This document shows positions 31,933-38,546 of a stretch of 64,000 nucleotides of DNA, piece by piece. Where the stretch lies: positions 124,001-188,000 of the forward strand of contig NZ_LQGY01000055.1 in NCBI RefSeq assembly GCF_001620055.1, read 5' to 3'. How positions within the stretch are numbered: position 1 is the stretch's first letter; the number at the start of each line of letters is the position of its first letter. Source of the DNA: Agromyces sp. NDB4Y10. GTDB lineage: Bacteria > Actinomycetota > Actinomycetes > Actinomycetales > Microbacteriaceae. The notes beneath the pieces are model-generated. The model saw only the letters and a program-made list of their open reading frames with translations. It had not been told where the DNA came from and did not search any database. Made by a program: the position numbers and the translations under genes.

Positions 31933-33213
31933 TCATTCGGGGTGGTTGCCTGTGTCGCCGTTGATGGTGAACGGTGTTGAGACTCCGTCGTACATGACGT
32001 GGGCGATGAGTCCATCGACCGCGTGCGGGAGGTTGTGGCAGTGGTCGCTCCAGATGCCCGGATTGTCGGCGACGAAGGCGACCTCGTACGTCTCGCCGGG
32101 GAACACGTCGAGTGTGTCGGTCCACCACGGGCTTCCGGATGCCGCGACCCCGTCACGCGAGAGTACGACGGCGTGGTGGCCGTGCAGGTGCATGGGATGC
32201 GTCTCGCTCGTGTCGTTCACGATGCGGATCACGACGATGTCGCCTTCGCGTACATGGAACATCGGGATGTCAGGAAACATTCGTCCGTTGATGGTCCAGA
32301 AGTTGCCGGGTCGGCCGTCGATGATTCCGAATCGCCGACCGATCACGTAGTCGAAGGTGCGGTCCGGTGATGACGGGTCGAATCCGAGCGGGGCGGGGTC
32401 GCCGTATGCGAGCAGGTCGAGGGTGTCCGAAGGTTGCGGTGCGGGGGGCTCTGATGCCTCGGGGTCACCGACCAGGATGCTGCGGGCGCCACCCAGGTGC
32501 AGGCGAGTGGCGCCGTCAGGTGGCGCCTGCACCGCGATATCCACTCGTCCTCCGGCAGCGAGGAGCACTCTTCGGTTCTTGACATCGGACGGGGCATTGA
32601 CTTCGGTGCCGTCGATCGCGAGGACGCGGAAGGGTGCCGCTGACCAGAGCGTGGCCGTGCCGTTGTCGGTGTTGACGACCCGGACGCGCACCGTCGCGCC
32701 GGGACGTGCCGCCACGCGCTGGTCTTCCGCACGGCCGTTGAGCGTGTGCTGGCCGTCGTAGATATGCAGCAGCGCGACGACGTCGCTGTCGCTTCCAATG
32801 GATGCTTCGGCGGGTTCGATGACGATCGCGCCGAGCATTCCGCGTCGGACCTGCTCGTGCGACACCTGATGCGAGTGGTACCAGTACGTGCCGGCGTCCG
32901 TCGCTTCGAATCGGTAGACGAACCGACCACCCACGGGCACCGCGTCCTGGGTGATGCCCGCGACACCGTCGGCTGCGTTCGGGACATCGATGCCGTGCCA
33001 GTGCAACGTAGCGCCTGCCGCGACCCACTCGTTGACGAACTCCACCTCGACGAGTTCACCCTGCCGAGCTCGGATCTCGGGTCCCGGCGATTGACCGTTG
33101 AGGGTGTATCCCTCCACCGCTCGACCGCCCGGCACGGCGATCTTCTGCTGGCGGGCTGTGAGCTCCACGCGCACGTCGGCCGGCCGCTCCGGATCCGCCG
33201 TCAGCCAGGTCAC
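31933..33213 (-). CDS. Multicopper oxidase, apparently without export part
   Basis: 426 residues, GTG start at 33213. All four copper-ligand motifs are present: LHWHG, YWYHSHQ, HPMHLHGHH and DHCHN. Such laccase-like enzymes oxidise Cu(I) outside the membrane. No signal peptide or membrane segment is visible. The frame stays open about 20 codons upstream (CGCQQAGSVS) to a TAA, a sequence that in related proteins follows an N-terminal membrane part, so the 5' end may be lost. The divergent gene starts 67 bases away. Confidence 0.82.
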   Translation of the reverse strand: MTWLTADPERPADVRVELTARQQKIAVPGGRAVEGYTLNGQSPGPEIRARQGELVEVEFVNEWVAAGATLHWHGIDVPNAADGVAGITQDAVPVGGRFVYRFEATDAGTYWYHSHQVSHEQVRRGMLGAIVIEPAEASIGSDSDVVALLHIYDGQHTLNGRAEDQRVAARPGATVRVRVVNTDNGTATLWSAAPFRVLAIDGTEVNAPSDVKNRRVLLAAGGRVDIAVQAPPDGATRLHLGGARSILVGDPEASEPPAPQPSDTLDLLAYGDPAPLGFDPSSPDRTFDYVIGRRFGIIDGRPGNFWTINGRMFPDIPMFHVREGDIVVIRIVNDTSETHPMHLHGHHAVVLSRDGVAASGSPWWTDTLDVFPGETYEVAFVADNPGIWSDHCHNLPHAVDGLIAHVMYDGVSTPFTINGDTGNHPE

Positions 33214-33280
33214 ACTGACCGACCCCGCCTGCTGGCAACCACACCGCTGCAGCTCCAGGAGCGGAGGTTAGGCTCATCGG

Positions 33281-33868
33281 GTGATTTCACGGGGTGCGCG
33301 CGCTGCACGTGGAGCGGCGGTGGCCGTGTTCGCGACCTTGGTCGCCTCGGTCGCGCACACGATCGGCGGCGGTGCCCCGCCCGGGCTGGTCGCGCTGCTG
33401 GTGGCTCTCGCGTTCTCGATCCCGCTGGCCGTGGCGCTCACCGGCGCCCGGGCGCAGCTTGCCCGCACCGCGGTGTCGGCGCTCGTCGCGCAGGCCGCCC
33501 TGCATGTCACCTACGGGATGGGCGGAGCCGCACCGCTCGGGCACGCGACGCACCTGGGCCACAGAGACGGGGTGGCTCTCGCCGCTTCGCCCACTTCTGC
33601 TGTCGACCACGGCACCGCTTGGATGCCGATCGCCCACGTCGTGGCCGCAGGACTCACGCTCGCCGCGCTGCTGCTCACGGACCGCGTCGTCCACGCGATC
33701 GGCGGGACAATGGGCATGCTCGTGCGGCGGCTCGCGATGATCCCGGTATCGGTGATCGCGCCGTCGCTGCGCGTCCCGGTCGACGCCGCGCGCCCGCGCT
33801 TCGCCGCGGTACTCCTCGCCACAGGCCTCGGGTCCAGAGGTCCCCCGGTCGAGTCGGCGGCGGCCTGA
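33281..33868 (+). CDS. Hypothetical membrane protein before ycnI
   Basis: 195 residues, GTG start. About four hydrophobic segments (roughly 10-28, 34-53, 59-80, 111-130) and a His-containing loop (HATHLGHRDG). No family is recognised. It precedes the YcnI and CopC genes on the same strand, 75 bases away, and is probably part of their operon. Confidence 0.7.
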   Translation: MISRGARAARGAAVAVFATLVASVAHTIGGGAPPGLVALLVALAFSIPLAVALTGARAQLARTAVSALVAQAALHVTYGMGGAAPLGHATHLGHRDGVALAASPTSAVDHGTAWMPIAHVVAAGLTLAALLLTDRVVHAIGGTMGMLVRRLAMIPVSVIAPSLRVPVDAARPRFAAVLLATGLGSRGPPVESAAA

Positions 33869-33943
33869 TCCGCCGACGACTCCGAATCACTCATCGACGC
33901 CGCCCACGCGCGTCCGACCTCGACCACGAAAGACCCTTTCATC

Positions 33944-34633
33944 ATGCGTCTCGCCCGCCTCTCCGCCACCGGCTTCGCCGGCGGCGTCATCCTCGCGCTC
34001 GCCGCCGTCCCGGTCGCCGCGAGCGCCCACATCGGCCTCACTCCGACGAGTACCGCCGCCGGCAGCTCATCCGTGCTCGCCTTCTCGTTCAACCACGGAT
34101 GCGACGGCTCATCCACCACTTCGCTCACGTTCCAGATTCCCGAGTCGATCACGACGGTGTATCCGGCCATCGACTCGGGCTGGACCGTCGAGAAGATCGC
34201 CGACGGCGACCGCACCGCGGAGGTCGTCTACACGGCGGTCACGCCGGTTCCTGATGGCTACCGCGCGGCCGTCGAATTGGCTGTGCAACTCCCCGAGGAC
34301 GCCGCCGGCGAGACCATCGCGTTCCCGGTGCTCCAGGCCTGCGAGGTCGGCGAGAACAACTGGAACGAGGTCGCCGAGGAAGGCGGTGAGGAGCCGGAGA
34401 ACGCAGCTCCTGTCATGGTCGTCACCGAGGCCACCGGCACCGACGACCATGGCGCCGCGACCGGCTCGGGTTCCGCCGACAGTCATGGCGAGAACGAGGA
34501 AGCGACCGCAGAGAGCAGCGCCGCCGACTCGTCCGACACGGTCGCCCGTGTCCTCGGCATCGGCGGCCTCGTCGTGGGCACGATCGGCATCGTGGTCGCG
34601 CTCGCCACGCGCCGTTCCCGCACGGACTCCTGA
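33944..34633 (+). CDS. YcnI-like copper-binding membrane protein (DUF1775)
   Basis: 229 residues. A signal peptide ends at ASA-HIGLTP, placing a His at the mature N-terminus, the copper ligand known for YcnI. The DUF1775 domain covers about 27-160 (LTFQIPESI...GWTVEKI). A Glu/His-rich linker and one C-terminal membrane segment (about 200-222) follow. It works with CopC and CopD outside the membrane; the next start overlaps its stop by one base (TGATG). Confidence 0.92.
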   Translation: MRLARLSATGFAGGVILALAAVPVAASAHIGLTPTSTAAGSSSVLAFSFNHGCDGSSTTSLTFQIPESITTVYPAIDSGWTVEKIADGDRTAEVVYTAVTPVPDGYRAAVELAVQLPEDAAGETIAFPVLQACEVGENNWNEVAEEGGEEPENAAPVMVVTEATGTDDHGAATGSGSADSHGENEEATAESSAADSSDTVARVLGIGGLVVGTIGIVVALATRRSRTDS

Positions 34634-35256
34634 TGTCGGGCCTGCGACAGACGACGTCGCGGCGGGCGGCGCGGCTCGGCCGCCTGGCCGCGCTCGTCGC
34701 GGCATCCGCCGCGTTGGCCGCCCTACCTGCAATGCCGGCGTCCGCGCACAACTACCTCGTGTCGTCGACACCGGCCGAGGATGCGGTGGTGACCCAGCAG
34801 CCGGGTACGGTCTCGCTCGAGACGAACGAGGCCCTGCTCGACGTCGAGAACGGATCGATCATCCAAGTGGTCGGCCCCGACGGGCGCTACTACGGCGACG
34901 GATGCGCCGTCGTCGACGGTCCTACGGCGACGACGCAGACGCAGCTCGGTGAACCCGGCATGTACACCGTGAACTGGCGGGTCGTCTCGGTCGACGGCCA
35001 CCCGATCTCGGGAACGTGGACCTTCGAATGGCAGCCCGTCGACGGCACCGCCCTCGCCGAAGGCTCGGACGAGCCGGGAGCCTGCGGCGGAACTCCCGCC
35101 GACTCGCCGGGTGGGACTGACGAGTCGGGGCAGCCGGCGGACTCCACCGACGCGACGACCGCTTCTCCACTCGACGCGGTTTGGATCGTGGGCGGCGTCC
35201 TCCTCGCCGCCGTCGCCGCGATCGTCACCTGGCTCATCCTCCGCCGCCGCGCATGA
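34633..35256 (+). CDS. copC: Copper-binding protein CopC
   Basis: 207 residues. The signal peptide ends at ASA-HNYLVSSTP, giving the N-terminal His of the Cu(II) site; the second His lies in VDGHPISGTWTF. Beta-barrel CopC domain about 38-135, low-complexity linker, then a membrane anchor (about 180-202). It passes copper to CopD, encoded next. Confidence 0.93.
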   Translation: MSGLRQTTSRRAARLGRLAALVAASAALAALPAMPASAHNYLVSSTPAEDAVVTQQPGTVSLETNEALLDVENGSIIQVVGPDGRYYGDGCAVVDGPTATTQTQLGEPGMYTVNWRVVSVDGHPISGTWTFEWQPVDGTALAEGSDEPGACGGTPADSPGGTDESGQPADSTDATTASPLDAVWIVGGVLLAAVAAIVTWLILRRRA

Positions 35257-35267
35257 GCTGACGGCGC

Positions 35268-35299
35268 GACCCGGCGGTCGAAAAGACGACCGCCGGGTC
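35268..35299. terminator. 13-base hairpin terminator
   Basis: GACCCGGCGGTCG, loop AAAAGA, then its exact reverse complement, 11 bases after the copC stop. No T-run follows. The copD gene has its own start 94 bases further on. Confidence 0.75.
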
Positions 35300-35392
35300 A
35301 CCCGACGTGCACGGGAGTCCATGGAGAACGGGGAGTGCCGGATGCCGCTGCCCCCGAGGGCCACGCACGGCGACGGCGTCTAGGCTGGTTCG

Positions 35393-37390
35393 GTGCACCG
35401 CTTCGTCCGCGTGCTCGGCCCTGCCGTGCTCGTCGCCGTCGCGCTCCTCGCGACCTTCGCGGGCCTCGCGTACGGCGGCGGCGCTGCGCCGCTCCCCATC
35501 CAGGACCCGGGCCCTGCTGCCCGCTTCGGTCTTCCCGTCGCGAAGCTGGTGGTGAACCTCAGCGCGGCCGGCATGATCGGCGCGCTCGTCCTCGCCGTGT
35601 GGGCGCTCACCCCGAAGCAGCGCGAGTTCGACGTCGCGCTCGACGTGGCCACGGCATCCGCCGCCGTGTTCACCGTCGCGAGTGCGGCGACCGGCATCTT
35701 CACGTTCCTCGCGGTCACGGGTGAGGCCGTCGACTTCGGTGAGGCATTCGGCCAGAAGCTGGGGCAGTTCGTCACCTCGATCGAGCTCGGCCAGGCCTGG
35801 CTCACCACCGCGCTCGTGGGGGCCGCCGTCACCGTGCTGTACTTCGCGGTGCGCAACCACACCGCCCTGGTGTTCGTCATGGTGCTGGCCGTCGCGTCGC
35901 TCGTGCCGATGGCGCAGCAGGGCCACGCGGCGGCCGCCGCCGGGCGTAACTCCGCGATCGCGTCGCTCGGCCTGCACCTGGTGTTCGCGGCCGTGTGGCT
36001 CGGCGGACTCGTCACCATCGTGCTGCTGCGCCGCGTGCTCGAAGGCGAGCGGCTGCCCGTAGTGCTCGCCCGGTACTCGACTGTCGCGCTGATCTGCTTC
36101 ATCGTGGTGGCGGTCTCGGGGTATGCGAACGCCGCACTGCGGATCGGCACCTGGGACGAGCTCGGCACCCGGTACGGGGTGCTCGTGCTCGCGAAGGTCG
36201 CCGTCCTCGTCGCGCTCGGCCTGTTCGGTGCGGCGCAGCGCCGTTTCCTGATCGGGCGGATGCGGCGGCCGACGTTCACGCAGGGCGCACCCGCCGGCGG
36301 ATCCATCACCCGCGACTTCTGGATGCTCGTCGTGGTCGAGCTCGCGTTCATGGGCCTCGCGTCCGGGCTCGCCGCCGCGCTTGCCCGCACGGCGACGCCG
36401 GTGTCGGAGGAGTCGGCGAGCTCCCTCGCGCGCACGCCGGCCGAGATCCTCACGGGCCGGCCGCTGCCGCCGTGGCCCGACTGGGCCCGCTACTTCACCG
36501 AGTGGAGCCCCGACCTCATCTGGCTGTTCGCCTGCGGCTTCGGCATCTTCTTCTACCTCGCCGGGGTGTTCCGGCTGCGGCGGCGCGGCGACCACTGGCC
36601 GGTGTACCGCACGGTGCTCTGGGTTGCGGGCCTGCTACTGCTCGCGTACGTGACGAGCGGCGGGGTGAACGTCTACGAGCAGTACCTGTTCTCGGCGCAC
36701 ATGGGCGCGCACATGATGCTGACGATGGCGGTGCCGGTGCTGCTCGTGCCGGGCGCGCCCGTGACGCTCGCGGCGCGCGCCATCCGCCCCCGCGAGGACG
36801 GCAGTCGCGGCGGACGGGAGTGGATCCTCCTCGCCGTGCACTCCCGCTTCGCCTCGATCATCGCCAACCCGGTCGTCGCGGCCGTGCTGTTGGTCGCGTC
36901 GCTCTGGGTGTTGTACTACACCCCGCTGTTCCGCTGGACGATGACCGATTACATCGGGCACACCTGGATGGTCGCGCACTTCGTCATCGTGGGGTACCTC
37001 TTCGTGCAGTCGCTGATCGGCATCGACCCGGTGCCGTACCGCCCGCCGTATCCGTTCCGGCTCCTGCTGCTGCTCGGCACCATGGCGTTCCACGCGTTCT
37101 TCGGGCTGTCGATCATGTTGGGCGCCGGGCTGCTGATCGCCGACTGGTACGACGCGTTGGGCTGGGGCATCGACACGGTCGCGGATCAGCGGCTCGGCGG
37201 CAGCATCGCCTGGTCGATCGGTCAGATCCCGACGGTGGCGCTCGTCATCACGGTGATGGTGCAGTGGTCGCGCAGCGACGAGAAGGAGTCGCGCCGGCTC
37301 GACCGGCAGGCCGACGCGGTCGGCGACGCCGGACTGGCGGCCCACGACGCGCGGCTCGAGGCGATCGCCGAGCACGATGCCCGGCGGTAG
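35393..37390 (+). CDS. CopD-CtaG fusion membrane protein
   Basis: 665 residues, GTG start at 35393. The N-terminal half (to about residue 330) is a CopD-type membrane domain; the C-terminal part (about 345-625) is a CtaG/caa3-type cytochrome oxidase assembly domain (AHMGAHMMLTMAVPVLL; GIDPVPYRPPYPF; MAFHAFFGLSIM). It would bring copper across the membrane for oxidase assembly or export. Such fusions are usual in actinobacteria. Confidence 0.92.
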   Translation: MHRFVRVLGPAVLVAVALLATFAGLAYGGGAAPLPIQDPGPAARFGLPVAKLVVNLSAAGMIGALVLAVWALTPKQREFDVALDVATASAAVFTVASAATGIFTFLAVTGEAVDFGEAFGQKLGQFVTSIELGQAWLTTALVGAAVTVLYFAVRNHTALVFVMVLAVASLVPMAQQGHAAAAAGRNSAIASLGLHLVFAAVWLGGLVTIVLLRRVLEGERLPVVLARYSTVALICFIVVAVSGYANAALRIGTWDELGTRYGVLVLAKVAVLVALGLFGAAQRRFLIGRMRRPTFTQGAPAGGSITRDFWMLVVVELAFMGLASGLAAALARTATPVSEESASSLARTPAEILTGRPLPPWPDWARYFTEWSPDLIWLFACGFGIFFYLAGVFRLRRRGDHWPVYRTVLWVAGLLLLAYVTSGGVNVYEQYLFSAHMGAHMMLTMAVPVLLVPGAPVTLAARAIRPREDGSRGGREWILLAVHSRFASIIANPVVAAVLLVASLWVLYYTPLFRWTMTDYIGHTWMVAHFVIVGYLFVQSLIGIDPVPYRPPYPFRLLLLLGTMAFHAFFGLSIMLGAGLLIADWYDALGWGIDTVADQRLGGSIAWSIGQIPTVALVITVMVQWSRSDEKESRRLDRQADAVGDAGLAAHDARLEAIAEHDARR

Positions 37391-37453: not shown

Positions 37454-37474
37454 TGACTGCTGTATAGTCATCGG
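37454..37474 (+). promoter_or_regulatory. cmtR promoter, probably leaderless
   Basis: A -10 box TATAGT (37462-37467) ends 7 bases before the GTG start, so the transcript probably begins at the start codon. The -10 lies in an inverted repeat TGACT-N7-AGTCA (37454-37470), a candidate CmtR site. Confidence 0.6.
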
Positions 37475-37831
37475 GTGCTGACTATTGCGACCGGTATGGA
37501 CGTGATGAACCGGCTGGGCCGCGCGATGGCCGACCCGACGCGTTCACGAATCCTGATGACCTTGATCGATGGACCGAGCTACCCGGCGGTGCTGTCGCGC
37601 GAACTGGGCTTGACGCGCTCGAACGTGTCGAACCATCTGGCGTGCCTGCGCGACTGCGGCATCGTGGTCGCCGAGCCCGAGGGGCGACAGACCCGGTATG
37701 AGATGGCCGACCCGCACCTTGCCCGTGCGCTGACCTCGCTTCTCGAGGTCACCCTGGCCGTGGACGAGAACGCGCCCTGCATCGATCCGTCGTGTTCCGT
37801 GCCCGGGTGCTGCGGGGAGGCTGCCGGATGA
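37475..37831 (+). CDS. cmtR: CmtR-type Cd/Pb-sensing ArsR repressor
   Basis: 118 residues, GTG start (MLTI, as in known CmtR). Cys57 and Cys61 in the DNA-recognition helix (NHLACLRDCG) and Cys102 match the three Cd(II)/Pb(II) ligands of Mycobacterium tuberculosis CmtR in number and position. Three further Cys lie in the tail (107, 112, 113). It should repress itself and the CDF exporter, whose ATG overlaps its stop by 4 bases. Confidence 0.93.
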   Translation: MLTIATGMDVMNRLGRAMADPTRSRILMTLIDGPSYPAVLSRELGLTRSNVSNHLACLRDCGIVVAEPEGRQTRYEMADPHLARALTSLLEVTLAVDENAPCIDPSCSVPGCCGEAAG

Positions 37832-38487
37832 GCCAGACGATCACGCCCGAGCGCCGCGCCGTCTTGCACCGACGCGTCCGACTGATTGTCGGGTTCACGA
37901 TCACCTACAACGTGCTCGAGGGAATCATCGCCATCTCGGCCGGAGTCGCCGCCTCCTCGGCGGCCCTGATCGGGTTCGGCCTGGACTCGTTCATCGAGGT
38001 CCTCTCAGCCGTGGCCGTGGCCTGGCAGTTCACCAGGAAGAACCCCGAACGCTGGGAGAAGCCGACCGTCCGGGCCATCGGGATAGCGTTCTTCGCCCTC
38101 GCGGCCTATGTGACCGTCGACGCGATCCTCTCCCTGACCGGCGTCGAACCAGTCGAGCACAGCCCACTCGGCATCGGCATCGCCGTCGCGAGCCTGGTCA
38201 TCATGCCCACTCTGGCGTGGTTCCAGTTCCGCACCGGTCGCGAGCTGGGCTCCAAGAGCGTGCAGGCCGACGCGAAGCAGCTGCTGCTCTGCATCTACCT
38301 CTCCGGCACCGTGCTGATCGGCCTGCTGCTGAACTCCCTGTTCGGCTGGACCTGGGCCGACTCGGTCGCCGCTCTCGTCGTCGCGGCTCTCGCCGTGCGG
38401 GAGGGAATCGAAGCCTGGCGCGGCGACGTCGAATCCCCCTTCGAGCTCTTCGAGGAGATGGACGAGGAGCACGAGGAGGTGAAGTGA
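37828..38487 (+). CDS. Short CDF metal exporter
   Basis: 219 residues. Six predicted membrane segments with metal-site residues in FGLDSFIEV (segment 2) and WADSVAALVVA (segment 5). The C-terminal cytosolic metal domain of larger CDF proteins is missing; it ends in an acidic stretch (FEEMDEEHEEVK). It is coupled to cmtR and so probably exports Cd(II), Pb(II) or Zn(II). Confidence 0.88.
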   Translation: MSQTITPERRAVLHRRVRLIVGFTITYNVLEGIIAISAGVAASSAALIGFGLDSFIEVLSAVAVAWQFTRKNPERWEKPTVRAIGIAFFALAAYVTVDAILSLTGVEPVEHSPLGIGIAVASLVIMPTLAWFQFRTGRELGSKSVQADAKQLLLCIYLSGTVLIGLLLNSLFGWTWADSVAALVVAALAVREGIEAWRGDVESPFELFEEMDEEHEEVK

Positions 38488-38546
38488 TGGACTGCTGCGA
38501 CCCCACAAGTTGCCCGCCCGAGCTGTGCGACCAGGACTGCTGCTGA
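38487..38546 (+). CDS. 19-residue Cys-rich peptide
   Basis: MDCCDPTSCPPELCDQDCC, six Cys (3, 4, 9, 14, 18, 19) and five acidic residues in 19. The ATG overlaps the CDF stop by one base (TGATG) and a strong GAGGAGGTG precedes it, so it is very likely translated. As the third gene of the cmtR-CDF unit it could be a tiny metallothionein-like metal binder or an accessory peptide of the exporter. I know no family for it. Confidence 0.7.
   Translation: MDCCDPTSCPPELCDQDCC

Follow-up and report, generated by a model that had tools for sequence, protein, structure and literature searches.

A 19-residue, six-cysteine peptide gene ends a cmtR-CDF operon in Agromyces and encodes a putative metal-binding helper of the exporter

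The cmtR-CDF operon of Agromyces sp. NDB4Y10 ends in a third gene encoding a peptide of 19 residues with six cysteines, and sequence comparison lends good support to this ORF as a genuine, selected gene. We estimate a probability of about two in three that the peptide is a miniature metallothionein or a detached thiol tail serving the CDF exporter. The operon lies in a 64-kb stretch of DNA, which was analysed as a whole and is called the window here, and its features are as follows.

37463..37468, + strand: TATAGT, probable -10 element of a putative promoter, 6 bases upstream of the cmtR GTG
37475..37831, + strand: cmtR, GTG start, Cd(II)/Pb(II)-type ArsR/SmtB repressor (NCBIfam NF047906, PDB 2jsc)
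37828..38487, + strand: short CDF cation exporter, 219 aa, whose ATG overlaps the cmtR stop (ATGA)
38473..38482, + strand: ribosome site of the peptide, GAGGAGGTGA, within the 3' end of the CDF gene
38487..38546, + strand: 19-residue six-Cys peptide MDCCDPTSCPPELCDQDCC, ATG to TGA, last gene of the operon

The original prediction described a cmtR-CDF unit ending in such a peptide, and the ORF coordinates and family models bear this out; its start of the unit, 37454, is slightly upstream of cmtR, while the remainder is accurate. The predicted ribosome site and one-base overlap with the exporter are also present: AGGAGG occupies 38474-38479, 7 bases upstream of the peptide ATG, which shares base 38487 with the CDF stop (TGATG overlap). 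The next genes downstream (CtaG and Lnt) are on the opposite strand and convergent. CmtR passes the NCBIfam CmtR equivalog NF047906 (173.8 bits, cut-off 150) and matches the solved structure of M. tuberculosis Rv1994c (PDB 2jsc) at E 8.7e-37. The CDF passes Pfam PF01545 (Cation_efflux; 54.4 bits, cut-off 26.6), scores 64.1 against TIGR01297, under the cut-off of 82.35 for that model, and has an acidic C-terminal tail without Cys.

Several lines of evidence show that the peptide ORF is unusual and conserved. The 64-kb window has 273 ATG starts that open ORFs of 12-30 residues, and no other of these ORFs reaches six Cys; nor does any in 60 simulated 64-kb sequences from a first-order Markov model, each with about 289 such ORFs (loci fetched by the peptide motif, described below, give no independent background for such a count). 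The peptide also follows the CDF gene in three Agromyces genomes (L003, L004, and L005) and in an Actinomycetes MAG (L121). The relatives share the start overlap and the Cys pattern, the non-Cys residues D, P, T, and E are conserved among the CDF-linked peptides, and the alignment breaks down past the peptide stop. The 10-base ribosome site is invariant in the four genus loci, while the codons before the CDF stop vary (last CDF residues K, T, N, and T); the ORF of L121 begins 26 bases past the CDF stop, behind an AGGAGG of its own. In all ten pairs of the five sequences dN is lower than dS, each pair differing synonymously at 1-4 codons and non-synonymously at 2-6. Because the overlap, the ribosome site, and the Cys pattern are kept, dN is lower than dS, and conservation ends at the stop, we regard the ORF as a real gene under selection.

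We scanned the GTDB r220 genomes for a fixed degenerate pattern (CCDPxxCP[PA] and the start, G-R, of the following codon) and obtained 92 matches, 16 of which were classed as ORF-like. All 16 have CmtR/CDF (3) or ArsC (13, four of them archaeal) no more than 900 bases away, while none of the other 76 has CmtR, CDF, ArsC, or ArsR within that distance; with a single query for each of the four genes and a limit of E<=1e-5, this neighbour test would overlook metal genes of other kinds around the 76. Twelve actinobacterial matches look like free-standing ORFs (a near ATG, a near stop, and a CC ending). They come from Actinomycetes/Microbacteriaceae and kin; three follow cmtR-CDF, and the other nine lie close to arsC, with arsR divergent. 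Four of these loci were already known: L107 (Agromyces bauzanensis) is L004, L144 (Agromyces lapidis) is L003, L078 is L033, and L124 is L040. The four archaeal loci (L113, L074, L097, and L066), all from Thermoplasmata, were chosen by eye as Cys-rich ahead of the neighbour check, and their frames and starts were confirmed afterwards. In each of them the Cys-rich peptide precedes an ArsC-like gene, followed by an aquaporin/MIP gene in L113 and L097 or an SBF-family permease gene in L074. The SBF family includes ACR3. The L113 neighbours, assigned with Pfam, are an LMW phosphatase fold, an aquaporin (MIP), and a divergent HxlR regulator. The ArsC proteins of L037 and L113 have the LMW phosphatase fold yet score below the NCBIfam arsC cut-offs, and we therefore term them ArsC-like. 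An HMM of the peptide matches 18 of the 398 genomes of the family sample at E<=0.1: the window, the exact ORFs of L033, L037, and L040, and 14 others that look like fragments of other reading frames and were rejected. The samples at order and phylum level, of 396 genomes each, yield beyond the window only weak partial matches, in 1 and 2 genomes, respectively (E<=0.02), and a plasmid search with the L033 peptide gave two poor matches (E 6 and 8).

Most of the relatives found adjoin arsC, not cmtR, and we examined the arsC loci of the family, where 323 of 369 genomes have an ArsC match at E<=1e-30. Ninety loci were read, 30 and the next 60 places in the list, with G268 and the second places of G256, G412, and G087 skipped. 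A Cys-rich ORF of 9-22 residues with a ribosome site lies beside arsC on its strand at nine of the 90, six after arsC (for example MDECCEGCC and MNDEECCGGIGCC) and three before it; such an ORF is thus present in a minority of the loci. L145, the peptide-bearing locus that supplied the ArsC query, was first found via its peptide and is itself one of the nine, and L263 and L265 are near-identical, which leaves seven distinct new cases. The tiny-ORF starts with a ribosome site beside arsC are Cys-rich in 11 of 18 cases, and the same shape occurs at 2 of 144 starts beside arsC without a ribosome site and at none of the 1172 starts in the remaining parts of the loci. No Cys tail is fused to ArsC in the nine peptide-bearing loci. 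Cys-rich ORFs near arsC in L246 and L257 were set aside, as they end in Arg and not CC, and that of L246 is without a ribosome site.

Because the ORF-like relatives sit near CmtR/CDF or ArsC genes, we assign the peptide a putative metal-binding role: most likely it is a Cd/Pb-binding helper of the CDF, and the arsC-linked forms would bind As(III). In the mechanism that we propose, Cd(II) or Pb(II) would lift CmtR repression, the operon would be transcribed, and translation of the peptide would be coupled to that of the CDF through re-initiation at the TGATG overlap. Its thiols, arranged as CC...C...C...CC, would bind the soft metal, hold it in the cytosol, and hand it over to the CDF pump, which lacks Cys in its tail. 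The peptide would belong to a set of Cys-rich peptides encoded in arsenic and cadmium-type operons, with lengths of 9-27 residues or, in two archaea, 34-35; the members need not all share a common descent. The tiny peptides beside CDF and arsC suggest a class of miniature metal-binding helper peptides. A bolder version, to which we give clearly less than even odds, is a cross-domain class of 9-35 residues that sits beside LMW-PTP-type arsC in Microbacteriaceae and Thermoplasmata and was adopted by the Agromyces cmtR-CDF operon, its members being detachable thiol tails that would deliver As(III), Cd(II), or Pb(II) to exporters. A Pfam and NCBIfam scan of nine peptides matched no metallothionein or ArsD model, and its sole matches were to a keratin model below cut-off; the window peptide was scanned as the 20 residues read from GTG, 20 being the minimum of the scan.

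We compared the occurrence of the peptide with the tails of the CDF proteins. Within the genus, 41 of the 60 genomes searched have CDF relatives, at 49 places in total; all of these were read, and the peptide is present at four (the window, L003, L004, and L005). With 27 family loci these 49 places form a CDF-selected set of 76, from which L121, found by the motif scan, is separate, and two family CDF places (both G144) are outside the set. Cys-rich ORFs after the CDF, for which the original prediction proposed a search, are conserved in relatives (L003, L004, L005, and L121) but are rare, at 4 of the 76 CDF-selected loci. A second, paralogous cmtR-CDF copy of the same genome has no peptide ORF. 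In a CDF tree of 77 rows, all 40 members of one clade have tail Cys and none has the ORF; the other clade (n=37) contains 31 CDFs with neither, five with the ORF, and one (L214) with a fused Cys tail. The ORF is thus found only where the CDF tail has no Cys, a pattern that fits the detached-tail reading and does not prove it. The 31 CDFs with neither indicate that thiols are not essential to this pump, and as the ORF label requires 3 changes on the tree, both gain and loss of the ORF are possible. The fused tail of L214, LCCAPNLGRDGDVDEDDCCDS, carries CC and DCC in a clade otherwise without tail Cys. In L005 and L212 the regulator ahead of the CDF is closest to the ArsR of ars loci, not CmtR, and because of the L005 regulator the cognate metal is not certain.

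The tiny ORF could instead be a Cys-codon leader or a metal-sensing regulatory ORF, whose translation matters and whose product does not. We consider this improbable overall, very unlikely for the window copy, and possible for some ars copies, which precede the genes they might regulate. Hairpins follow the stop where the ORF precedes arsC (z -1.6 to -5.8 in 10 of 11 folded, -0.4 in the eleventh), and metal-sensing leader ORFs such as CruR (PMC9426467) exist, as reportedly do mycobacterial poly-Cys attenuators (Canestrari 2020, as cited in PMC13236596). However, hairpins are also found behind terminal copies (L005, L121, L145, L147, and L232), and those of L005, L121, and L145 resemble terminators; six ars copies are positioned after arsC, and the CDF-linked copies keep their non-Cys residues D, P, T, and E. 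The window copy precedes no gene that it could regulate, being last in the operon before convergent genes on the other strand, and no stable hairpin forms within 60 bases past its stop (z 0.0). As a separate observation, strong hairpins (z -2.5 or lower) lie directly behind the peptide stop and ahead of arsC in L065, L085, L143, L078, L115, L076, L124, and L090, and these could attenuate or set the peptide:ArsC ratio.

A thiol peptide with a redox role, for example in protecting or re-reducing proteins, has a similarly low probability. LMW-PTP-fold reductase-like enzymes need a thiol donor, genes of this type adjoin the arsC-linked forms, and the vicinal CC pairs would suit such a role, but the cmtR-CDF operon contains no redox enzyme and the window-type peptide has no CxxC spacing. 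Even less probable is that frameshifting fuses the peptide to the CDF as a part of the pump: the peptide frame opens at the CDF end and related CDFs have fused Cys tails, but we saw no conserved slippery site, the ribosome site is invariant where the last CDF residues differ, and the ORF of L121 starts 26 bases beyond the CDF stop with a ribosome site of its own. A chance, untranslated ORF would account for the rarity of the peptide among the CDF-selected loci and is strongly disfavoured by its conservation, dN<dS, and operon linkage.

The peptides can be compared with several known systems. The bacterial metallothioneins SmtA/BmtA and MymT have about 50 residues or more; like them, the peptides are small and Cys-rich, with metal-responsive expression and thiolate metal binding presumed, but they are far shorter, tied to arsC/CDF, and match no metallothionein model. 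The arsenic metallochaperone ArsD, which also belongs to arsenic operons, binds As(III) with vicinal Cys and serves ArsA as a folded protein of some 120 residues; the peptides share the arsenic-operon location and vicinal Cys, but they are bare (19 residues in the window) and have no full-length ArsD domain. Mycobacterial poly-cysteine leaders are likewise tiny Cys-codon-rich ORFs of Actinobacteria, but they are reportedly attenuators of operon expression, whereas the window copy is a last gene. To our knowledge, few gene-encoded proteins of metal detoxification would be as small as these peptides, if they bind metal. They would also have gone unnoticed in arsenic and cadmium-type operons, and they allow a direct test of a pump served by a free thiol peptide against one with a built-in tail, and offer short, simple candidate As/Cd/Pb-binding sequences. 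The copper-responsive upstream ORF CruR, as described in PMC9426467, is also small, contains Cys, and is associated with metal genes, but it is larger than the peptides, combines a CXXC with a RAPP arrest motif, and is mostly the first gene of its operon. Such peptides are not described among the matches listed in a literature search of titles and abstract openings, with most subscription journals outside its coverage.

CmtR has Cys 57, 61, and 102, which we take to be its metal ligands. The original prediction pointed to extra Cys in its tail, and these exist (Cys 107, 112, and 113): the tail, CIDPSCSVPGCC, resembles CCDPTSCPPELC..CC of the peptide, but it belongs to the repressor itself. The GCC of the tail is kept in 33 of 34 CmtR loci (judged by eye), and because it is present with or without the peptide, the tail cysteines have no special link to the peptide.

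In the TM5 region of the CDF, the motif ADAKQLLLC or a close variant ending in C occurs in 33 of the 77 CDF rows; one row ends in H, and 43 do not match the search string. Other CDFs carry HxxxD at this position, and its replacement by ADAKQLLLC suggests a soft-metal site. A sigma-70 scan for the cmtR promoter found no site, and TAYAGT lies 4-8 bases ahead of the start codon in 23 of 34 CmtR loci; the spacing of TATAGT to the cmtR GTG suggests a leaderless mRNA. Copper-related genes are located immediately upstream of the operon, at 31933-37390: a multicopper oxidase on the - strand, DUF1775, CopC, and a CopD-Caa3_CtaG fusion of 665 aa.
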